From Rhodoplanes serenus (lineage in GTDB: Bacteria; Pseudomonadota; Alphaproteobacteria; Rhizobiales; Xanthobacteraceae): 64,000 nucleotides of DNA. The notes beneath the pieces are model-generated. The model did not search any database. It saw only the letters and a program-made list of their open reading frames with translations, and was not told where the DNA came from. Within the stretch, counting starts at the first letter, position 1; each line of letters begins with the position of its first letter. Where the stretch lies: NCBI GenBank assembly GCA_945897515.1, contig CAMDFO010000001.1, positions 62,001-126,000 on the forward strand. The letters run 5' to 3'. Below, one piece after another: positions 11,759 to 64,000 of the stretch. Position numbers and translations under genes: made by a program.

Positions 11759-11850
11759 GATGGCCCAACTCCGTGCGGCAGGAGGCTTTCGATCTACCGG
11801 ACGGGCGACTTGACGGGAAGCCGACCGGGTCGCATGATCGAATTTATCCC

Positions 11851-11910
11851 GTGGTCATTTGAGCCGGCCGGCTTGCTAGCCACGCTAAACAAATAGCTAA
11901 AAGGCCGGGG
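11851..11910 (+). promoter_or_regulatory. SAM-II riboswitch upstream of metZ
   Basis: The sequence matches the SAM-II (metA-motif) consensus of alphaproteobacteria: a first stem starting GUGG that closes with CCAC, the GCUUGC-U-AGCCACG-C-UAAAC core and the pseudoknot strand AAAUAGCUAAAAGGCC. Binding of S-adenosylmethionine is known to shut down downstream methionine genes. It is followed at once by a G+C hairpin and T-run (11922-11949), indicating control by transcription termination. Confidence 0.88.
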
Positions 11911-11921
11911 ACACGTGTGCC

Positions 11922-21406: not shown

Positions 21407-21490
21407 GTCATCATGGCCGGGCTTGTCCCGGCCATTTACGTCTTACGCAACGCCAAGACGTGGATGCCCGGCAAGGCCGGGCACGACGAA
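21407..21490. repeat. Family A palindromic repeat
   Basis: Two nested inverted repeats: TCATGGCCGGGCTTGTCCCGGCCAT and, after a spacer, GACGTGGATGCCCGGCAAGGCCGGGCACGAC in part; the outer arms (ACGTC) also pair. The same unit recurs at 37237-37323 and, as a half, at 56391-56428. It lies between the convergent gcrA and phoB genes. Confidence 0.85.
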
Positions 21491-31817: not shown

Positions 31818-32396
31818 ATGATGCGGCAGCGCGACAAACCGGAGGACGGCAGGAAGAGTGCCGATCCACTCTTGGCTCTTTATGGCCGCCCCGGTTTCAT
31901 GATCCGCCGCGCGCACCAGATCGCGGTCTCGCTGTTTCTGGAAGAAACCGGCGCGCTGCGCATCACGACCACGCAATTCGGCATTCTGCATCTGCTGAAG
32001 CATCGGCCGGGGCTCGATCAGATTTCCGTCGCAAAGCTTCTGGGACTCGACCGCTCAACCACCGGAATGGTGCTGACCAAGCTGGAAGGCGCCGGTCTGG
32101 TCGGCCGCAGCGTCGGCGTGGACGACCGGCGCAAGCGATCGCTGGTGCTTACCCTGGCCGGGGAAAAGATGCTGGAGCGGCTGAAAGAGCCCGCCCGCCG
32201 CGTGCAGGCCCGCCAGCTTTCGGCGTTCGAACCGCATGAGCGCAAGCTGTTTCTGGAACTGCTTGGCAAGTTCACACGCGCGTTCAACGAATCGACGCGT
32301 GCGCCGCTGGAGGCGCACCGGGCGAAGAAAAGTGAAACGCCGTCATTCCGGGGAGCGCGAAACGCGCGAACCCGGAATCCAGGACCAGGTACGTAA
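31818..32396 (+). CDS. MarR family transcriptional regulator
   Basis: A 192-residue winged-helix protein: TQFGILHLLKHRPGLDQISV, AKLLGLDRSTTGMVLTKLEG (recognition helix) and the wing VGVDDRRKRSLVLTLAG. The last 19 or so residues (SFRGARNARTRNPGPGT) are translated from a family C palindromic repeat that starts at 32341, so the original stop has been replaced. It probably controls the upstream binding-protein gene or nearby catabolic genes. Confidence 0.88.
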   Translation: MMRQRDKPEDGRKSADPLLALYGRPGFMIRRAHQIAVSLFLEETGALRITTTQFGILHLLKHRPGLDQISVAKLLGLDRSTTGMVLTKLEGAGLVGRSVGVDDRRKRSLVLTLAGEKMLERLKEPARRVQARQLSAFEPHERKLFLELLGKFTRAFNESTRAPLEAHRAKKSETPSFRGARNARTRNPGPGT

Positions 32397-33408: not shown

Positions 33409-33446
33409 CGCGCGCACCTCTTTTTGATCCTGCAAATCCACCGACT

Positions 33447-33523
33447 GTCATGCCCCGCGAAGGCGGGGCATCCAGCAGCGCCACCAACGAAGTCTGGATC
33501 GCCCGCCTGCGCGGGCGATGACA
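33447..33523. repeat. Family B palindromic repeat
   Basis: TGTCATGCCCCGCGAAGGCGGGGCATCCAG in two arms, then TCTGGATCGCCCGCCTGCGCGGGCGATGACA in part: two hairpins whose outer ends are complementary. Copies are at 49670-49730 and 63904-64000. Confidence 0.85.
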
Positions 33524-37201: not shown

Positions 37202-37236
37202 CGCGCTGAGTGCCGACGGACTGGCGCCGCACTCTC

Positions 37237-37323
37237 CACGTCATGGCCGGGCTTGTCCCGGCCATCCACGTCTTTATTCGCTGCTAAGACGTGGATGCCC
37301 GGCACAAGGCCGGGCATGACGAA
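37237..37323. repeat. Family A palindromic repeat
   Basis: ACGTCATGGCCGGGCTTGTC then CCGGCCATCCACGTC, spacer, and GACGTGGATGCCCGG...CCGGGCATGAC: the same two-hairpin arrangement as at 21407-21490. It sits between convergent genes and probably also ends transcription. Confidence 0.85.
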
Positions 37324-37352
37324 CTGTTGGTTCGACACGCGTGGAGAATGCC

Positions 37353-38857: not shown

Positions 38858-38866
38858 GACGACACG

Positions 38867-38974
38867 GCATCATTCCGGGGCGCGCCGAAGGCGCGAGCCC
38901 GGCAACAGAGCCAAGGAAAAGTGTGTGCGGCCCTGAATACCGGGCTCGCTCGCTCCGCTCGCGCCCCGGAATGA
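38867..38974. repeat. Family C palindromic repeat
   Basis: ATCATTCCGGGGCGCGCCGA, internal AGGCGCGAGCCCGG, then ATACCGGGCTCGC...GCGCCCCGGAATGAC as the inverted outer arm. It lies between convergent genes. Confidence 0.85.
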
Positions 38975-47255: not shown

Positions 47256-47265
47256 TTCTTCACGC

Positions 47266-47307
47266 TGTCATTCCGGGGCGCCGCAAAGCGGCGAGCCCCG
47301 GAATGAC
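47266..47307. repeat. Family C palindromic repeat (short copy)
   Basis: TGTCATTCCGGGGCGCCGCA and AAGCGGCGAGCCCCGGAATGACG form a single 18-bp hairpin with a small loop. It lies between the convergent RND pump and a Bug receptor gene. Confidence 0.85.
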
Positions 47308-49660: not shown

Positions 49661-49669
49661 GAACATGCC

Positions 49670-49730
49670 TGTCATGCCCCGCGAAAGCGGGACATTCAGC
49701 CTGGATCGTCCGCTTTCGCGGACGATGACA
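49670..49730. repeat. Family B palindromic repeat
   Basis: TGTCATGCCCCGCGAAAGCGGGACATTCAG, then GGATCGTCCGCTTTCGCGGACGATGACA in part: two hairpins with complementary outer ends, as at 33447-33523. It lies between convergent genes and ends eight bases before the dnaE2 stop. Confidence 0.85.
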
Positions 49731-49737
49731 CCGTCGC

Positions 49738-52700
49738 TCAATGAAAATTCCGGCCTTTCGGCATCACCTTGGCGGTGTGGTGCGCCGCTGCCAATTCCTC
49801 GACCGCCGGCTTTTCCTCCTTCAGCATCGTCACCAGCGCGTCGCCAGCGCGCGGGTGGCGCTGGCGTGAGATCACCGGCCGTTTGATCTCGTCGATCGAT
49901 GCAATGCGATCAAGCTCCACATCGTTGTCGGACAGCCGTCCCAGCAGAAACGTCAGATCCTCGAACCGGTCGGCGACGATGTGGATTACGCCCTTCTCGT
50001 TCTGAAGCACACCGGTCACGCTGATCAGCCGCGCGCCCATCACCACCGGCCGATACTCCTCGAACTTGCGCGGCCAGACGATGGTGTTGGCGATCGCGGT
50101 CTCGTCCTCCAGGGTCATGAAGATGGCGTTGCCTTCGCCCGGCCGCTGCCGCACCAGCACCAGACCGGCGATGGTGACGCGGCGGCCCGGCGCGAGCGTC
50201 GGCAAACGGTCGTGTCGGACAATGCCGCGCGCATCGAGATCGGCGCGCAGGAACGACACCGGATGCGCCTTCAGCGAGAGGTGCAGGTGGCGATAGTCCT
50301 CGACCACTTGCTGGCCCGGCAGCATCGACGGCAGACGCGCGTCCGGCTCGATCTCCGGCATCGCGGCGCGGGCGAACAGCGGCAGGTCGTCCTTGTCGCC
50401 GGTCCGCTGCAACGCCTTCACCGCCCACAGCGCATCGCGCCGGCTGAGGCCGAGCGAGCCGAAGGCGTCGGCCTGCGCCAGCTTTTCCAGTGCCGCGGGC
50501 GGCAGCCTGGTGCGCAGCCAGAGATCGCGGATGGAGTCGAAGCCTGCGCCGCGCACGCGTTCGATCTGCAGACCCCAGTCCTCGGAGAAGCCGTCGACCT
50601 GACGAAACCCGAGACGAAGGGCGTGCGTGGTCAGAATATCCTCCTGCATCGATGCATGGCGCGGGTTCAGCGGCCCGAGCGGCGCGGCTTCCAGCGTGCA
50701 GTCCCAGTTCGAGTGGTTGATGTCGACCGGCCGCGCCTCGACGCCATGTTCCTGCGCGTCACGCACGAGCTGCGCGGTTGCGTAGAATCCCATCGGCTGG
50801 CTGTTGAGCAACGCGGCGGCGAACACATCGGGGTAATGGCATTTGATCCAAGCGGAGGCGTAGACCAGCAATGCGAAGCTCGCGGCATGGCTCTCGGGAA
50901 AGCCGTAATCGCCGAAGCCTTCGATCTGCTTCCAGCAATTCTCAACGAAGGTCTTTGGATAGCCCCGATCACACATTCCTTCGATAAATCTCTTCTTGAA
51001 ATGAGGAAGAGTTCCCACGTTCCTGAACGTGGCCATGGATCGGCGCAGTTTACTGGCTTCGACCGGCGTAAATCCTGCGCAATCGATGGCAATTCGCATC
51101 GCCTGCTCTTGAAACAAAGGAACGCCCAGGGTTCGCTCAAGGACATTCTTTAGCTCATCTTTGGGACCATGCTTCGGATCTGGGGCGGGATATTCGACCT
51201 TCTCCAACCCCTCCTTCCGACGCAGATAGGGATGCACCATGTTGCCTTGGATAGGCCCCGGTCGCACGATCGCGACCTCGATCACCAGGTCGTAGAACGT
51301 TTCCGGCTTCAGCCGCGGAAGCATCGACATCTGCGCGCGGCTTTCCACCTGGAACACGCCGATAGAATCCGCGCGCGACAGCATGTTGTAAACCGCAGCC
51401 TCCTCTTCGGGGATGCTCGCCAGTGTGTGCTTTACCCCATAGTGCCGCTCGATCAGATCGAGGCCGCGGCGCAAGCATGACAACATGCCGAGACCCAGAA
51501 CATCGACCTTGAGGATATCCAGAGTATCGAGATCGTCCTTGTCCCATTCGATGACCGTTCGCTCATCCATCGCGGCATTCTCGATCGGAACGATTTCATC
51601 GAGACGCGCCTCCGAAATCACGAAGCCGCCGACGTGCTGGGACAGATGGCGGGGAAAACCGAGCAACTCATTCGCCAGCGCAAAGACCTGATTCAAGCGC
51701 CCTTCAGAGGGATCGAGGCCAGCCCGCAAGACCTGTTCTTTTGTCACGCCATCCATCGACCACCCCCAGATGGATGACGTCAGCGTATCGATAACGTCCT
51801 GGGACAGTCCGAACACTTTGCCGACTTCGCGGAGCGCGCTCCGGCTGCGATAGCAAATGACAGTTGCCGTCATCGCCGCATGCCGGCGTTTGTAATGCTC
51901 GTAGATGTGCTGGATCACTTCCTCGCGGCGTTCATGCTCGAAATCGACATCGATGTCCGGAGGTTCCTTGCGCTCCGGCGACATGAAGCGTTCGAACAGA
52001 AGGCCCGCGCGCTCCGGACTCACCGCCGTGATGCCAAGGCAATAGCAAACAAGAGAGTTGGCGGCCGAGCCGCGCCCCTGACACAGAATGCCTTTTGATT
52101 CTGCAAAGCAGACGATGTCGTAAACCGTCAGGAAATAGGCCGCGCACTTCAGCCCTTCGATGACGGCCAGCTCTTTCCTCAAAGTGTCCCGACGCTCTTG
52201 AGAAAGCCCCCCCGGATATCGGCGCAAGGCTCCCTGTTCCACCAAAGCGACAAGCGCGTCCTGGGCCGTCGCATAGCCGTGGCGGTATTCATTGGGATAG
52301 CTGGGCTCCAACTCGTCCAATGAGAACCGGCAACGTTTGAGGAAACGTGTCGTCTGTCCGAGGGCTTCGGGCACCTCACGAAACAGGCACGCCATTTCTG
52401 CGAATGACTTCAGATGCCGTTCGGCATTTCCCTCCAGAAGAGTCCCTGCCCCCTCTAACGTCCGATGCTCGCGAATGCAGGTCATCACATCCTGGAGCGC
52501 ACGACGTTCTGGAACATGATAGAGGACATCGTTTACGGCGATGAGCGGTACACCCGCATTGAAAGAGACATCCTTCAACTTCGCCAACCGGCGGCGATCA
52601 TCGCCTCGATAAAGCAGGCTGGCTCCAAGCCATACGGATCGGTGAGAAGCTGCCTCCTTCAGGCGACGTAGCTGATGGATCAATGAATTGGAATTGATAA

Positions 52701-53088
52701 GCCGAGGCGGCAAAACGATGAAATTCAGATTCTCGGCATCTTCTAGCAAATCCGGAAGACCGAGGATGCAATCTCCTTTTTCTGCGCGATCTTTCCCGAT
52801 CGTTAGCAGCCGGGTGAGACGGCCCCAGCCAGCCCGATTGGATGGATAAGCGAGGATGTCGGGAGAATAACCATCGCTAAAAACCAGCCGTGCCCCAACG
52901 GCAATCCTAAAGCCGATGACCTTCGCTATTGCATGGGCTCGCACGACACCTGCAACGGAGTTGCGATCCGCGATACCGAGGCCGACAAGGCCAAGCTCCT
53001 TGGCTTGCACCACCAGATCTTCGGCTTTTGAGGCGCTGCGGAGGAACGAATAATTTGTCGTGACGGCCAATTCGACATACGCAGACAT
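49738..53088 (-). CDS. dnaE2: Error-prone DNA polymerase DnaE2
   Basis: A 1116-residue C-family polymerase. N-terminal PHP domain (YVELAVTTNYSFLRSASKAE; GIADRNS), palm Asp triad in PPDIDVDFEHER (Asp378, 380, 382), GGFVISEARL, and a C-terminal OB fold (RVTIAGLVLVRQRPGEGNAI). No PHP exonuclease set typical of replicative DnaE is complete. It performs SOS mutagenic lesion bypass with ImuA and ImuB. Codon use and GC drop sharply from about 50,930 to the start (see findings). Ten nt separate it from imuB. Confidence 0.95.
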   Translation of the reverse strand: MSAYVELAVTTNYSFLRSASKAEDLVVQAKELGLVGLGIADRNSVAGVVRAHAIAKVIGFRIAVGARLVFSDGYSPDILAYPSNRAGWGRLTRLLTIGKDRAEKGDCILGLPDLLEDAENLNFIVLPPRLINSNSLIHQLRRLKEAASHRSVWLGASLLYRGDDRRRLAKLKDVSFNAGVPLIAVNDVLYHVPERRALQDVMTCIREHRTLEGAGTLLEGNAERHLKSFAEMACLFREVPEALGQTTRFLKRCRFSLDELEPSYPNEYRHGYATAQDALVALVEQGALRRYPGGLSQERRDTLRKELAVIEGLKCAAYFLTVYDIVCFAESKGILCQGRGSAANSLVCYCLGITAVSPERAGLLFERFMSPERKEPPDIDVDFEHERREEVIQHIYEHYKRRHAAMTATVICYRSRSALREVGKVFGLSQDVIDTLTSSIWGWSMDGVTKEQVLRAGLDPSEGRLNQVFALANELLGFPRHLSQHVGGFVISEARLDEIVPIENAAMDERTVIEWDKDDLDTLDILKVDVLGLGMLSCLRRGLDLIERHYGVKHTLASIPEEEAAVYNMLSRADSIGVFQVESRAQMSMLPRLKPETFYDLVIEVAIVRPGPIQGNMVHPYLRRKEGLEKVEYPAPDPKHGPKDELKNVLERTLGVPLFQEQAMRIAIDCAGFTPVEASKLRRSMATFRNVGTLPHFKKRFIEGMCDRGYPKTFVENCWKQIEGFGDYGFPESHAASFALLVYASAWIKCHYPDVFAAALLNSQPMGFYATAQLVRDAQEHGVEARPVDINHSNWDCTLEAAPLGPLNPRHASMQEDILTTHALRLGFRQVDGFSEDWGLQIERVRGAGFDSIRDLWLRTRLPPAALEKLAQADAFGSLGLSRRDALWAVKALQRTGDKDDLPLFARAAMPEIEPDARLPSMLPGQQVVEDYRHLHLSLKAHPVSFLRADLDARGIVRHDRLPTLAPGRRVTIAGLVLVRQRPGEGNAIFMTLEDETAIANTIVWPRKFEEYRPVVMGARLISVTGVLQNEKGVIHIVADRFEDLTFLLGRLSDNDVELDRIASIDEIKRPVISRQRHPRAGDALVTMLKEEKPAVEELAAAHHTAKVMPKGRNFH

Positions 53089-53097
53089 GACTCATGC

Positions 53098-54645
53098 TCA
53101 CGCAAACAGACCATGCAGATACCAATTCGGCTGGGGGGTTTCGCGACCATAGAGACCTTCGCGATAAAGCCACGCCCGCATACCAAGGCGATTCTCAACG
53201 CGGAAATAATCGCGGGTGAGCTTATTGCCACGATCATCGCGCCACCATTCTATGGCGATACGCTCCGGTCCTTCAACCACCGCCACATCATGCAGCACAT
53301 GCCGCCAGCGAAAACGTATCGGCGGGCCATCCGGTACTTGGGCCATCACTTCGACCTGTTCCGGCCATTCAAATAAGCGAAGCGGACGCGTCACGCTCAG
53401 CGTGTCTTGATCTACAAGTGACGGTGCTGCCAGGGCCCCGCATATCCCGTGCGCCGGCACCGCAATCACTGCGAACTCCGGAATGTGCGTGTCCTGCGGC
53501 ACCAGCCTACTCACCCGGCGCAGGCCGAACCGCGCGCCGAGCCGGTCGATCAGATGCGCCAGGTCCTCGGCATGATCCGGTCCCGCCAATCCGGTCTGCG
53601 CCGGATCGCTGCGCTCGGTCACCAGCGCGGACAGCCGGATCATGTCGAAACCGAAACCGGGATCGCAGGCGTCGCCCAGCACGGCGAGACGCTCCTCAAA
53701 CAGCTTTCGCACGCGCGCGGCATCGCGCAGCGGCGCGCCGGTGCCGATCTCCAGCCGATGCACCTTGCCGTCGGTGCGGAACAGCGCGAGCCCGATCAGG
53801 CGGGCACCCTCGCCGCGCCGCTCCAGCACGATGGCAAGCTGCCGCGCCAGATGCTCGACGGTGCCAAGCACGTCGTCCTCGCGCGCGATCGGCTCATGAA
53901 AGCGCTGCTCTGCCATCGCATCGGGCACCGGCAGGCGCGGCGTGATCGGCTCGTCGGCGCGGCCCAGCGCCTGATCCAGGCGAAGCACCAGCCCCTTGCC
54001 GAAACGCGCGGCCAGCGGCGCGCGCGGACGGCAGGCGAGATCGGACACGCACTTGAGGCCGGAGGTCGCGAGAGCGGTGACGATATCGGGTTCGACGCGC
54101 AGCGCCGCGATCGGCAAGGGCAACACCGCCGCGGCGGTTTCGTCTTTCGCGATCACGCCGGGCGTGCCGTAGCGCGCCACGCCCCAGGCTGCGCCGACCG
54201 TGTCCGCCACGGCCAGCCTTGCGCGAAACCCCTGGCGCGCGAGCCGCGCGACAAGATCGCGGCAGAGCGCCGCTTCGCCGCCGAACAGATGCGCGCAGCC
54301 GGTGACGTCGAGCACAAGCCCATCCGGCGGATCGAGTCCGACCAGCGGCGTGTAGCGGTCGCACCAGTCGGCGATGTTCTCCAGCATCCGCCGGTCGGCT
54401 TCCGGATCGGCCTCCGCCACCGGCAGCGATGGATAGCGCGCGCGGGCGTCAGCTAGGCCCAGGCCGGTCTTGAGCCCGAGCTGAGCCGCAGCGTCGTTGA
54501 GCGCCGTGACGCGCTGCGCGCCCTTGATCGATGCGACGACGACGCGCGCGGTATCAGCCGGTGCGGACGGATGGCGTTCGATCCGGTCGGTCGAAAGCCG
54601 TCTCAGCCACAGCGAGAGATACCGCCGTCTGAAAGGTTCGCTCAT
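53098..54645 (-). CDS. imuB: ImuB, Y-family polymerase-like mutagenesis protein
   Basis: A 515-residue Y-family homologue that in known systems lacks polymerase activity and acts as a hub for DnaE2 and the beta clamp. Visible: RRYLSLWLRRLSTDRIER start, GLVLDVTGCAHLFGGE palm segment, helix-hairpin region LATSGLKCVSDLACRPR, and the probable clamp-binding RPLRLFEWPE near the C-terminus. It starts at ATG 54645 inside imuA (92-nt overlap). The last 320 bases are AT-richer than the rest. Confidence 0.9.
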   Translation of the reverse strand: MSEPFRRRYLSLWLRRLSTDRIERHPSAPADTARVVVASIKGAQRVTALNDAAAQLGLKTGLGLADARARYPSLPVAEADPEADRRMLENIADWCDRYTPLVGLDPPDGLVLDVTGCAHLFGGEAALCRDLVARLARQGFRARLAVADTVGAAWGVARYGTPGVIAKDETAAAVLPLPIAALRVEPDIVTALATSGLKCVSDLACRPRAPLAARFGKGLVLRLDQALGRADEPITPRLPVPDAMAEQRFHEPIAREDDVLGTVEHLARQLAIVLERRGEGARLIGLALFRTDGKVHRLEIGTGAPLRDAARVRKLFEERLAVLGDACDPGFGFDMIRLSALVTERSDPAQTGLAGPDHAEDLAHLIDRLGARFGLRRVSRLVPQDTHIPEFAVIAVPAHGICGALAAPSLVDQDTLSVTRPLRLFEWPEQVEVMAQVPDGPPIRFRWRHVLHDVAVVEGPERIAIEWWRDDRGNKLTRDYFRVENRLGMRAWLYREGLYGRETPQPNWYLHGLFA

Positions 54646-55336
54646 GTTGATCCCAGGTGATGGTCCATCGGCCGGTAGGGCCGCGCCGGTTCTTGACGAG
54701 AGAAAGATCGAAGGCCGCGCGGCCGATGCCGCCGTAACGGTCGGGCCGGCTCGGGCTTGCGGCGATGGTCCAGCGGGTCGCCGCGGCGCTGGGCACTCCG
54801 CTCGCGCGATGGCGAAGCAGAAATCCCATGCCGCCGCTTTCGCGGGCGGCCAGCACGAGCCGCCGGGTGGCGGTGAGGTCCGCGATCGAATCCTCGGCCA
54901 GTTCGGCGATGACGCCGGCGAGTGCGCGGCAGCGCAGCGCCTCCTCCATCGCCCAGAGCGCATCGATGGAGCGCGGCACGCGCAGCACCAGCAGACGGGC
55001 GGCCGGCAGGCCGAAAAGACCGAGACCCGGGCCATAAGGCCCGCCGCTCTCCATCACCGCGAAATCGGGGGCGATCCAGAGCGTCTCCCCCTGCTCCCGG
55101 CCCGCCAGGGCGGCGAGCGCGATGGCGAAACCGGTGGCCGAGGTCAGATGGATCGGCGCCGCAGGAGCAAATTCATGCACGGCGCCACGGGCCAGCCCGC
55201 CACTCAGCGCCGCGTCGATGCCGGGAACGTTCAGACGCAACGCCCGTTCGGGTTCATGCAGTCCCGGGCCAAGCGTCGGATCGAGCCCCACCAGAGCCTG
55301 CCGGAGATGGTTCAGCCTGGGCGAGAGATGGCCCAT
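54554..55336 (-). CDS. imuA: ImuA, RecA-like mutagenesis protein
   Basis: A 260-residue RecA/SulA-like protein of the imuA-imuB-dnaE2 cassette: LNVPGIDAALSGGLARGAVH, ETLWIAPDFAV and LVLAARESGGMGFLLRH. It helps deliver ImuB and DnaE2 to damaged DNA. The C-terminal 30 residues overlap imuB in another frame. An SOS box lies 15-29 bases upstream of the start. Confidence 0.9.
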   Translation of the reverse strand: MGHLSPRLNHLRQALVGLDPTLGPGLHEPERALRLNVPGIDAALSGGLARGAVHEFAPAAPIHLTSATGFAIALAALAGREQGETLWIAPDFAVMESGGPYGPGLGLFGLPAARLLVLRVPRSIDALWAMEEALRCRALAGVIAELAEDSIADLTATRRLVLAARESGGMGFLLRHRASGVPSAAATRWTIAASPSRPDRYGGIGRAAFDLSLVKNRRGPTGRWTITWDQHERTFQTAVSLAVAETAFDRPDRTPSVRTG

Positions 55337-55350
55337 CGGACTTTCCCAAT

Positions 55351-55365
55351 GTTCATGTTATGTTC
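55351..55365 (-). promoter_or_regulatory. LexA box (GTTC-N7-GTTC)
   Basis: GTTCATGTTATGTTC, an exact match to the alphaproteobacterial LexA motif GTTC-N7-GTTC, immediately upstream of imuA. It indicates LexA repression and DNA-damage induction of the whole cassette. Confidence 0.88.
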
Positions 55366-55545
55366 TTATAGATTCCCGTTCCCTCCACCAATGTCAAGAA
55401 CCAACTTTTTTCCAATCTTTAGAATAGCTTATGGAGTGACCCCAGGCGTTAACCTTTTGGCAAGGCTGTGTGGGAACCTGGGGCAACCATCTGCATTAAG
55501 TTAGACAAACACGGTCCTTGAGCGTCCCCGATCCTTGAGCGTCCT

Positions 55546-55788
55546 ATGCCGATCTCCGACTATCTCCGCCGCCAAGCCGATACCTGCCTTCGCATCGCGC
55601 GGGCCGGCTTCGACCTGGGCACGGCCGAACGGCTGGGGGCGCTGGCGGCCGAACTGCGGGCGAAGGCCGACGAGCTTGAGGACGAGCAGGACCACGACGA
55701 ACGGTCATTTCAGCCTCACATGCAAAAGGGCAACGGCCGCAACGGCTCCAGCGGTTCTTCCCATAACGGGTCCGAGGGCGGCTTCTAG
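55546..55788 (+). CDS. Small hypothetical protein with Gly/Asn/Ser tail
   Basis: An 80-residue protein: helical N-terminus MPISDYLRRQADTCLRIARA with GTAERLGALAAELRAKADEL, then a low-complexity tail (NGRNGSSGSSHNGSEGGF). Similar small proteins are, as I recall, common in Bradyrhizobium relatives but have no function assigned. It is monocistronic, between the divergent imu cassette and the acyl-CoA ligase operon. No clear Shine-Dalgarno. Confidence 0.55.
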   Translation: MPISDYLRRQADTCLRIARAGFDLGTAERLGALAAELRAKADELEDEQDHDERSFQPHMQKGNGRNGSSGSSHNGSEGGF

Positions 55789-55895
55789 CCTTCCTGTCCG
55801 CCGAAACCTCCCGGCATCACGATTGAGAACCAAGCGCGCCGACCGCGCCGGAATAACGTTGAATTTTGGCGGGCAATGCGGTGAATCCTACCCGC

Positions 55896-57587
55896 ATGAA
55901 CGTCATCCTGACGCGGCTCTCCACCGAACTGATCGAGCACTACACGAACGCCGGCTTCTGGCGCGGAGACACGATCTATTCGCTGGTGAAGGGACACGCC
56001 GACCGCGCGCCGAACACCTTTGCGGTCCGGGACCGCTATCGGCGCATCAACTATCGGCAACTCGCCGACGCCGCCGACGCTCTCGCCACCGATCTCGCGC
56101 GGCGCGGACTGAAGCCCGGACAGCGGGTGCTGGTGTGGATGCCAAGCCGGATCGAGGGCGTTGTGGCGCTGCTGGCGTGTTCGCGCAACGGATATGTCTG
56201 CTGTCCATCGCTACATCGCGACCACACCGTCGGCGACATCGTCGAGCTCATGCAGCGCACACGTTGCGCGGCGTTCATCGTGCAGAACGGCTACGGCGCG
56301 GATGCGGACAAGCGCGATGTGCGTTCCACAATCAAAGACATTCCGACCCTGCGGCATACCTATTTTTTGGATGCACTTTCCGAATCCTCCGCGTCATGGC
56401 CGGGCTTATCCCGGCCATCCACGTCTGACTTCCAGAGCAAAGGCGTAAATGAACGCGAGACTGTGCCCAAATCCGACCCCAACCAAGTCGTCTATCTCGC
56501 CTTCACCTCGGGCACGACCGGCAAGCCCAAGGGCGTGATGCATTCCGACAACACGCTGCTCGCCAACGCGCGCCAGCTTGCGGCCGACTGGAGCATCGAC
56601 AAGGATTCCGTCGTCAACACGCTCAGCCCGCTCAACCACAACCTCGGCTTCGGCGCGCAGGTGATGGCGCTGGCGATGGGCGGCGAGCTGGTGCTGCCTG
56701 ACCTGCCGCGCGGTGCGAGCCTCGCCGACCGCATCCTGGAAACCGACACCAGCTTCCTGGTCGGCGTGCCGACCCATGCCGTCGACCTACTCGGAGAAAT
56801 GCGTCAGCGTGGATTGAACGGGCTCGGTCGGCTCACGGGTTTCCGCATCTCGGGCGCGGCGGCGCCGAGCGAGGTCGTGGCCGGGCTCCTCCAGCAGGGC
56901 ATCGTGCCGCAGAGCGGCTACGGCATGACCGAAACTTGCTCGCACCAGTACACGCTGCCCGGCGACGACGCGAAACGCATCATCGAAACCTCGGGCCGCA
57001 CCTGTCCGGGTTACGAGCTGCGCATCTTCCGCACCGACGATGCGAACACCGAAGCGCCGCCCGGCGAGGTCGGCCAGATCGGCGGACGCGGCGCGAGCTT
57101 GATGCTGGGCTATTTCGACGACCAGACCGCCACCGAGGATTCGTTCAACGAAAGCGGCTGGTTCATGACCGGCGATCTCGGCCAAATCGACACCGACGGA
57201 TACTTGCGCATCACCGGCCGCCAGAAAGAGATCATCATCCGCGGCGGCCACAACATCCATCCGGCGCGGATCGAGGAGTTGGCGAGCCGCCATCCCGCGG
57301 TCGCACGCGTCGCCGCGATTCCGATCAAGGATGCGCGGCTCGGCGAGAAGGTCTGCCTCGCTGTGGCGTTCCGCGCCGGCAAGCAGGCCGATGCCGCCGA
57401 GCTTCTGGCACATCTCGACGCTGCGGGCCTGTCGAAGTTCGATATGCCGGAATATTTCCTGGCGCTCGACGAGATTCCGCTGACCCCAAACGGCAAGCTG
57501 AAGAAGCGCGACATCGTTGACTGGATCGCGCAGGGTCGCGTAACGCCAGAGCCCGTGCGGTTCGAAGCCAAACGCGCCAGCGCGTAG
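55896..57587 (+). CDS. AMP-forming acyl-CoA ligase with an in-frame repeat insertion
   Basis: A 563-residue adenylate-forming enzyme: P-loop YLAFTSGTTGKPKGVMHSD, GYGMTETCS, GWFMTGDLGQIDTDGYLRI, GRQKEIIIRGGHNIHP and the catalytic Lys in PLTPNGKLKKRD. It activates a carboxylic acid as its CoA ester; cyclohexanecarboxylate- or aryl-CoA ligases are the nearest in feel. Residues 166-178 (ASWPGLSRPSTSD) are read from a half family A repeat inserted in a linker just before the P-loop. Translation might start earlier at TTG 55866 or GTG 55881. First of three operonic genes. Confidence 0.87.
   Translation: MNVILTRLSTELIEHYTNAGFWRGDTIYSLVKGHADRAPNTFAVRDRYRRINYRQLADAADALATDLARRGLKPGQRVLVWMPSRIEGVVALLACSRNGYVCCPSLHRDHTVGDIVELMQRTRCAAFIVQNGYGADADKRDVRSTIKDIPTLRHTYFLDALSESSASWPGLSRPSTSDFQSKGVNERETVPKSDPNQVVYLAFTSGTTGKPKGVMHSDNTLLANARQLAADWSIDKDSVVNTLSPLNHNLGFGAQVMALAMGGELVLPDLPRGASLADRILETDTSFLVGVPTHAVDLLGEMRQRGLNGLGRLTGFRISGAAAPSEVVAGLLQQGIVPQSGYGMTETCSHQYTLPGDDAKRIIETSGRTCPGYELRIFRTDDANTEAPPGEVGQIGGRGASLMLGYFDDQTATEDSFNESGWFMTGDLGQIDTDGYLRITGRQKEIIIRGGHNIHPARIEELASRHPAVARVAAIPIKDARLGEKVCLAVAFRAGKQADAAELLAHLDAAGLSKFDMPEYFLALDEIPLTPNGKLKKRDIVDWIAQGRVTPEPVRFEAKRASA
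56391..56428 (+). repeat. Half family A repeat inside the ligase gene
   Basis: GCGTCATGGCCGGGCTTATC followed by CCGGCCATCCACGTCTGA: one hairpin of the two-hairpin element found intact at 21407 and 37237. It keeps the ligase frame open and codes for SWPGLSRPST. Confidence 0.85.
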
Positions 57588-57604
57588 AAATAAAGGAGAA
57601 CACC

Positions 57605-58597
57605 ATGCGCGCCGTCGTGGTCCGCGATTTCGGGCCGATCGAGAACGCCACGCTCAACGACATGCCAAAACCCGAGGTGAAGGCGGGCGAGGTGCTGCTC
57701 GAAGTCCGTGCCACCGCGGTGAACTTTGTCGACCTGATCATGATGAGCGGCAACTACCAGTTCAAACCGGAGTTGCCGTTCATTCCCGGCAAGCTGCCGG
57801 CGGGGATCGTCGCCGCGATCGGCCAAGGGGTGACGAAGTTCAAGCCGGGCGACCACGCCATCGCGATGGCCGAGCACGGCGGATTCGCCGAGTTCGTCGC
57901 CATGCCGGAGAACCAGTGCATCCCCTTGCCGGCCGCGCTGCCATTCACCGAAGCCGCCGCCATGTCTTTGGTTTACGACACCGCCTATTTCGCGCTGCGC
58001 GACCGCGCCCGCATCGCGCCAGGCGAAACCGTGCTCGTGCTCGGCGCCACCGGCGGCGTCGGCCTCGCCGCGATCCAGCTCGCCAAGGCGATGGGCGGCA
58101 AGGTGCTGGCGGCCGTTGCCAGCAAGGACAAGGAAGACATCGTGCGCGCCGCCGGCGCCGACGCGATCGTCGATCTGTCGGTGCCGGACCTGAAAGAATC
58201 TCTCCGCGCACAGGTATTCGAGAAGGTCGGCAAGGGCGGCGTCGATATCGTGCTCGACATGCTGGGCGGCGATATGTTCGACGCCGCGATTCGCGCGCTG
58301 GCGTGGCGCGGCCGGCTGGTGGTGATCGGTTTCGCGTCGGGCCGGATCCCGAGCATCAAGGCGAACTATTTCCTGGTGAAGAACATCGAGGTCACCGGGT
58401 TGCAGATCAGCGACTATCGCAAGCGCCGGCCGGACGACATGGCGGCGGCGTTCCGGCAGATCTTCGACTGGCACGCCGCGGGAAAGCTCAAGCCGCTGCC
58501 AACCAAGGTCTATCCGATCGAGCAGTTCGCCACAGCGATGCACGACATCCAGGATCGCAAGGTGCGCGGCCGGGTGGTGCTGAGCCAGGGGAAGTAG
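57605..58597 (+). CDS. NADPH:quinone oxidoreductase-like MDR protein
   Basis: A 330-residue zinc-free medium-chain dehydrogenase: MRAVVVRDFGPIENATLNDM, EVRATAVNFVDLIMMSG, PGKLPAGIVAAIG, GETVLVLGATGGVGLAAIQL (Rossmann loop) and RKVRGRVVLSQGK. Related proteins reduce quinones, or enoyl-CoA/acrylyl-CoA esters. It is 17 nt after the ligase, with AAAGGAG before the ATG, so reduction of an unsaturated acyl-CoA made by the ligase is a reasonable inference. Confidence 0.9.
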   Translation: MRAVVVRDFGPIENATLNDMPKPEVKAGEVLLEVRATAVNFVDLIMMSGNYQFKPELPFIPGKLPAGIVAAIGQGVTKFKPGDHAIAMAEHGGFAEFVAMPENQCIPLPAALPFTEAAAMSLVYDTAYFALRDRARIAPGETVLVLGATGGVGLAAIQLAKAMGGKVLAAVASKDKEDIVRAAGADAIVDLSVPDLKESLRAQVFEKVGKGGVDIVLDMLGGDMFDAAIRALAWRGRLVVIGFASGRIPSIKANYFLVKNIEVTGLQISDYRKRRPDDMAAAFRQIFDWHAAGKLKPLPTKVYPIEQFATAMHDIQDRKVRGRVVLSQGK

Positions 58598-63823: not shown

Positions 63824-63903
63824 GGCGCGAGCCTTATAACTTCGATGGAGACGACGGCTTGATGGGTCTCGTTTCACGCGATCATGCCGCGGCAAACACA
63901 GGC

Positions 63904-64000
63904 TGTCATGCCCCGCGAAGGCGGGGCACCCAGTACGCCGTGGCAGTGCGGGTGGGCGCCGGCGGCCGTTCCGGCCCGCGGTTACTGGATCGTCCGCCTT
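63904..64000. repeat. Family B palindromic repeat, running off the window
   Basis: TGTCATGCCCCGCGAAGGCG then GGGCACCCAG, a spacer with GGCGCCGGCGGCCG, and GGTTACTGGATCGTCCGCCTT at the edge: the left hairpin is complete, the right one is cut by the window end. Confidence 0.8.

Follow-up and report, generated by a model that had tools for sequence, protein, structure and literature searches.

REPs of the CGTC-3 family are built from a CGTC tag, a 9-bp stem that begins with AT, a 5-nt loop and a CCA tail (Di Nocera, De Gregorio and Rocco 2013, PMC3733652). In the available part of that report, they occur predominantly as HH dimers, mostly heterodimers, and are described as unassociated with tyrosine (RAYT-type) transposase genes. 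The same text places REPs inside open reading frames in several species, possibly in flexible linkers or loops of the encoded proteins, and includes protein-coding palindromes of Rickettsia among these cases. The Rickettsia palindromic elements (RPEs) found in protein genes (Ogata et al. 2000, as cited in PMC2229807, PMC2759123 and PMC3733652) are given as 105-146 bp long, Rickettsia-specific and present in 19 reading frames in the accessible text of PMC2229807.

Here we describe a repeat unit within a protein-coding gene of Rhodoplanes serenus, in a 64,000-nucleotide stretch of a draft assembly (hereafter, the window; all coordinates refer to it). We consider, with a probability of roughly 0.83, that an acyl-CoA ligase gained a single REP unit, in frame, at a linker that tolerates it. 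That figure covers the core reading only. Alternatives that concern the decay of the gene and the extent of the insert bear on inferred steps and overlap with the core.

An in-frame repeat unit in an acyl-CoA ligase gene

The gene (55896-57587, + strand) is open throughout its 563 codons and was identified by Pfam and structure searches as encoding an AMP-forming acyl-CoA ligase of the ANL superfamily. Pfam AMP-binding and AMP-binding_C, which represent both domains of the superfamily, are matched. The features that define ANL membership are all present: the AMP-binding domain, the C-terminal domain and the ATP-binding loop TSGTTGKPKG (residues 204-213; 56505-56534, + strand), which is encoded 3' of the insert. 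In the lists from two structure searches, every match is an acyl-CoA ligase, an aryl-acid ligase, a luciferase-type enzyme or a peptide-synthetase adenylation domain, and we take all four groups to be ANL enzymes. The fold and both Pfam domains are common to the window ligase and to the acyl-CoA and aryl-acid ligases of the superfamily (DhbE, 1md9; MatB, 4fut). None of the 25 NCBIfam models listed, of 106 matched, reaches its cut-off, and these matches give no substrate. The codon-usage signal is similar on the two sides of the insert (0.34 and 0.37), and simple scans of 55300-57700 for promoters and terminators were negative.

At 49738-55336 (- strand) lie a dnaE2-like polymerase gene, which is a conserved neighbor of the ligase across the genus, and, on its ligase side, two more genes; these genes are presumably dnaE2 and imuA/imuB. 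Elsewhere in the window, a SAM_alpha riboswitch aptamer occurs at 11841-11920 (+ strand; RF00521, 71.4 bits).

A reading of the sequence made without database searches (hereafter, the sequence-only reading) had reported a palindromic repeat in frame within the ligase, in a gene that continues to a normal C-terminus. Both statements hold. The repeat is a single CGTC-type REP unit of 36 nt, or 12 codons (56392-56427, + strand), with 98 copies in the genome, and the 563-codon frame is intact, with both Pfam domains in place. The unit extends from position 2 of codon 166 to position 1 of codon 178, so that residues 167-177 read SWPGLSRPSTS and the flanking codons are split. Its layout is a CGTC tag, a 9-bp stem (ATGGCCGGG/CCCGGCCAT), a 5-nt loop (CTTAT) and a CCA tail followed by CGTCTG, with the stem-loop at 56396-56418 (+ strand). 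For the 48 nt at 56385-56432, the RNA folding energy is -20.5 kcal/mol (z -4.05), a value reached by none of 200 shuffled sequences. At the element, no Rfam family reaches its gathering score.

The reading frame survived because the unit is 36 nt long, a whole number of codons, and has no stop codon in the frame used; in the consensus unit, five of the six frames lack stop codons. The ligase-borne unit matches the 98-copy consensus at 34 of 36 positions. One difference is a G to A change in the loop, where no other copy has A. It converts TTG to TTA, which is silent and makes the only TTA among the 55 leucine codons of the gene. The other is the last base, T in the consensus and G in the ligase.

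The repeat family and its genomic positions

We found 98 genome copies at three or fewer mismatches of 32 (48 forward and 50 reverse). Chance resemblance of the unit was ruled out by a reversed-pattern control, which gave 0 and 0 matches, and by shuffling of the window, which contains 3 copies compared to 0 in 100 shuffles. Strong conservation across the 98 copies is confined to a block of 36 nt. Outside it, conservation is weak and falls mainly at -3, -6 and -7, so the left edge of the unit is inexact. The CGTC tag, at positions 0-3, is nearly invariant (C in 89, G in 97, T in 97 and C in 98 of the 98 copies) and is present in the ligase copy.

Most copies (86 of 98) have an inverted partner, defined by 10 or fewer mismatches of 32 within 150 nt, with the tails of the two units facing and a partner consensus stem unlike that of the unit. 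Eight of the other 12 copies retain the partner tail, one of them (L028) just partly. The ligase copy has no partner, and the description of it as half an element in the sequence-only reading was therefore apt. As a reference, a full element of two inverted units lies at 37239-37321 (+ strand), where the region 37230-37330 folds at -59.1 kcal/mol; a further copy of the unit is found at 21409-21440 (+ strand; 3 mismatches of 32).

Other repeats were noted alongside this family. At four loci of the same genome (L109, L123, L128 and L136), the partner is a hybrid that opens like AAGACGTGGATGCCCGGCACA and continues as TAGGCGAGCGAAGCGACGCCGTC or a similar sequence, which suggests a second partner type. 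Palindromes of a second dispersed family (like TGTCATGCCCCGCGAAGGCGGGGCATCCAG) occur in the window at 33439-33475, 49663-49699 and 63897-63933 (78-100% of the reference). A third family, which contains TCATTCCGGGG and an inner hairpin, occurs at 32334-32375, 38861-38902 and 47259-47300 (69-100% of the reference).

No convincing transposase candidate for the unit came to light. The genome, which is 88.9% complete, has one Y1_Tnp match, which is below threshold (21.9 bits compared to a cut-off of 23, at G000:C12:89992-90315). No unit was found in the 2240 bases around it, and one is present ~1.6 kb away on that contig. Across the genus, Y1_Tnp matches do not track repeat number: there are 56 units but no match in one genome (G010), and 6 units but three matches in another (G007).

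How unusual is a copy within a gene? We used a codon-usage test that scores a position as mid-gene if it lies mid-ORF with a same-frame coding signal on both sides, and that misses part of the true coding positions. By this test, one of the 98 copies, that in the ligase, is mid-gene, compared to 365 of 462 off-repeat positions (79%) in the same loci; 906 of 1500 random window positions also score as mid-gene. At the loosest threshold four copies are counted. The three extra copies (L097, L149 and L114) were rejected as further mid-gene cases, given that they require laxer thresholds and that their open reading frames have no Pfam match at E 0.01. The scarcity of mid-gene copies is not due to frame alone, because the unit spans 12 codons and is open in five of six frames. 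Either purging or intergenic targeting may lie behind it, and the codon-usage test does not tell the two apart.

Orthologues, the linker and the predicted structure

Of the ten other genomes of the genus, seven carry an orthologue that covers the linker, and all seven orthologues lack the peptide. Six of these are 72-77% identical to the window ligase and one, from G008, is a fragment at 64% identity that ends at the ATP-binding loop. All seven lie on the same contig as dnaE2 and within 7 kb of it, as does the window ligase. In the three other genomes, which are the nearest by dnaE2, the contig ends before the locus (G006), other genes occupy the position (G010) or no orthologue is seen (G003). 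The peptide is also absent from the further relative palsa_888 and from three distant relatives (57, 48 and 48% identical; L007, L010 and L014) that stand outside the count of seven.

Alignment of orthologues had been proposed, in the sequence-only reading, as the comparison on which the claim of an inserted repeat would turn. The seven genus orthologues are without the peptide, yet their genomes carry the repeat: at one or fewer mismatches of 30, there are 3 copies in G001, 18 in G002, 1 in G004, 2 in G005, 6 in G007, 25 in G008 and 22 in G009. Conservation of the peptide in orthologues was thus ruled out by MAFFT alignments of the genus orthologues and of the relatives. Because these orthologues, like palsa_888, lack the peptide though the repeat occurs elsewhere in the genus genomes, an extragenic repeat has become coding sequence here, as had been suggested. 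The closest ligase sequence found is 77% identical, so the empty site is not directly visible.

The alignment of relatives used 38 of 44 loci; L062, with one stop codon, was dropped, and the partial loci L085, L087, L089, L090 and L092 were excluded. Three of the loci (L049, L050 and L091) are almost certainly G005:C38, G002:C46 and G001:C10, and are not independent of the seven genus orthologues. Between Y156 and D194, the window protein has a linker of 37 residues, the longest of the 39 sequences (17-35 in the 38 relatives). Without the 12 residues of the unit the linker would be 25 residues long, and those of the genus orthologues are 27-31. An aromatic residue is found 12-17 residues before the D194 column in 26 of the 38 relatives, at 14 or 15 residues in 18 of these 26. 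This count omits the first five linker residues, and by it 12 of the 38 relatives have no such aromatic.

The sequence-only reading had also regarded a few unusual residues after the repeat as foreign, which the alignment does not bear out. F179 (56430-56432, + strand) lies 14 residues before D194, at the family spacing, and is likely the original aromatic of the linker. The repeat-coded W168 sits 25 residues before D194, where none of the 38 relatives has a counted aromatic. Because the family spacing is that of F179, not of W168, F179 and the residues that follow it are, judging from the alignment, most likely original, with the unit just upstream. For the same reason we dropped microhomology, which had been considered because MAFFT pairs W168-P-G with the F-P-G of the family. 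The insert had been placed just ahead of the ATP-binding loop; it is indeed upstream, but 26 residues separate it from TSGTTGKPKG.

AlphaFold2 predicts a normal ANL core for the window ligase (mean pLDDT 88.5, pTM 0.84) and a low-confidence linker, where residues 161-190 have block means of 72, 58 and 59. The model of an orthologue without the insert (L049) has nearly identical core elements (mean 88.3, pTM 0.88) and linker blocks of 77 and 75. Two short linker helices are predicted only in the insert-bearing model.

We propose that one unit of a dispersed REP with a CGTC tag was inserted between the codons of S165 and F179, probably without loss of original sequence. The twelve extra residues would lengthen a length-variable and probably exposed linker that runs from the strand at residues 154-158 to the strand leading into the ATP-binding loop, and the linker segment DFQSKGVNERETVPKS would belong to the original sequence. 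The insert is presumably translated with the rest of the gene. The ligase most likely retains its fold and its activity, and the insertion would therefore be tolerated as neutral or slightly costly.

Alternative explanations and comparison with known repeats

So, is the ligase losing its function, with the insertion an early and as yet unpurged step of gene decay? This is possible but unlikely. It remains a reading beside neutral tolerance because the ligase is absent from its locus in a relative: between conserved neighbors on both sides, G010 has genes for a TPR protein and for a protein with a dihydroorotate-dehydrogenase-B-type Fe-S domain (L158 1042-4456, G010:C257), and nothing else ligase-like in it exceeds 31% identity. 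However, that genome is ~80% complete. That just one repeat copy is scored as mid-gene also suggests that such insertions are rarely kept. Of the 99 columns invariant in the 38 relatives, the window ligase departs from two (S247N and D445E), which speaks for decay, and keeps 97, which, together with the intact frame and the codon usage on both sides of the insert, argues against it; when the other 38 were each tested against the rest, there were 0 to 3 departures, with 2 or more in six of the 38. Rates are likewise equal. A relative-rate test against the nearest orthologue gave 36 and 37 unique residue changes, and a second outgroup gave 22 and 28. No accelerated evolution is seen, although these counts cover mostly the time preceding the insertion. 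NG86 estimates are dN 0.134 and dS 0.598 over 526 codons. An assembly artefact, in which two strains were joined at the repeat, is given hardly any weight. The draft assembly is in 119 contigs at 88.9% completeness and the repeat has 98 copies, but both flanks belong to a single gene and share the frame seen in the orthologues. A join with the copy of another gene is unlikely because at the main threshold the ligase copy alone is scored as mid-gene.

The extent of the insert is a separate question, for which we rank second, as improbable, the insertion of a whole two-unit element whose second half was then degraded or lost, making ~60 nt (56392-56451) foreign. The predominance of inverted pairs in the family, and the partner tails kept by most unpaired copies, are in keeping with this, and a partner-tail-like stretch (CAAAGGCGTAAATG; 56438-56451, + strand) is found at the spacing typical of the family (k = 20, median 22). 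For the 14-mer, comparison with 20,000 random positions gives p 0.00125 and shuffling gives 0.00065; none of the positions scanned along the gene does as well, and a 12-nt tail model gives p 0.01. However, the tail test was conceived after seeing the sequence, a plain count of 12-mer identities gives p 0.018 (wide spacing) or 0.006 (narrow), and the full partner model does no better than random (p 0.41). Moreover, the original linker would then be 17 residues long and lack the family aromatic, compared to 27-31 residues in the genus orthologues. We regard the tail-like stretch as probably coincidental and favor the insertion of one unit. Very improbable, in our judgment, is that the peptide has been retained for its effect, the twelve residues delivered by the hairpin tuning substrate affinity or the swing of the C-terminal domain. 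The linker is upstream of the ATP-binding loop, and the available text of PMC2229807 describes a Rickettsia guanylate kinase with such an insert that is active with altered substrate affinity. Against this, nothing in the data points to selection on the insert, and the segment has low confidence in the AlphaFold2 model. Were it true, a REP would have supplied a working protein part.

In-frame insertion of one unit in a tolerated linker makes the ligase a clean example of the way in which a short extragenic repeat may turn into protein. Its site, in a linker already length-variable among relatives, supports the view that inserts survive where the protein is indifferent. It is a clear, isolated new case, and REPs within genes have already been described in other bacteria.

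The unit fits membership of the CGTC-3 REP family. It shares the tag, the AT-first 9-bp stem, the 5-nt loop, the CCA tail and the lack of a transposase association, and its family is similarly multi-copy, dispersed and mostly outside genes (98 copies, one mid-gene). The inverted arrangement of most copies, with facing tails and an unlike partner stem, may be compared with CGTC-3 dimers, although the HH orientation is not defined in the accessible source text. The ligase differs in that it holds a lone unit, whereas pairs of unlike units predominate in the family. By analogy, the case resembles the RPEs in that a palindromic repeat is read in frame inside a conserved gene that likely stays functional. 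Unlike RPEs, the unit is 36 nt long, belongs to a set of 98 copies spread over ~4.5 Mb of genome, and comes from a bacterium other than Rickettsia.
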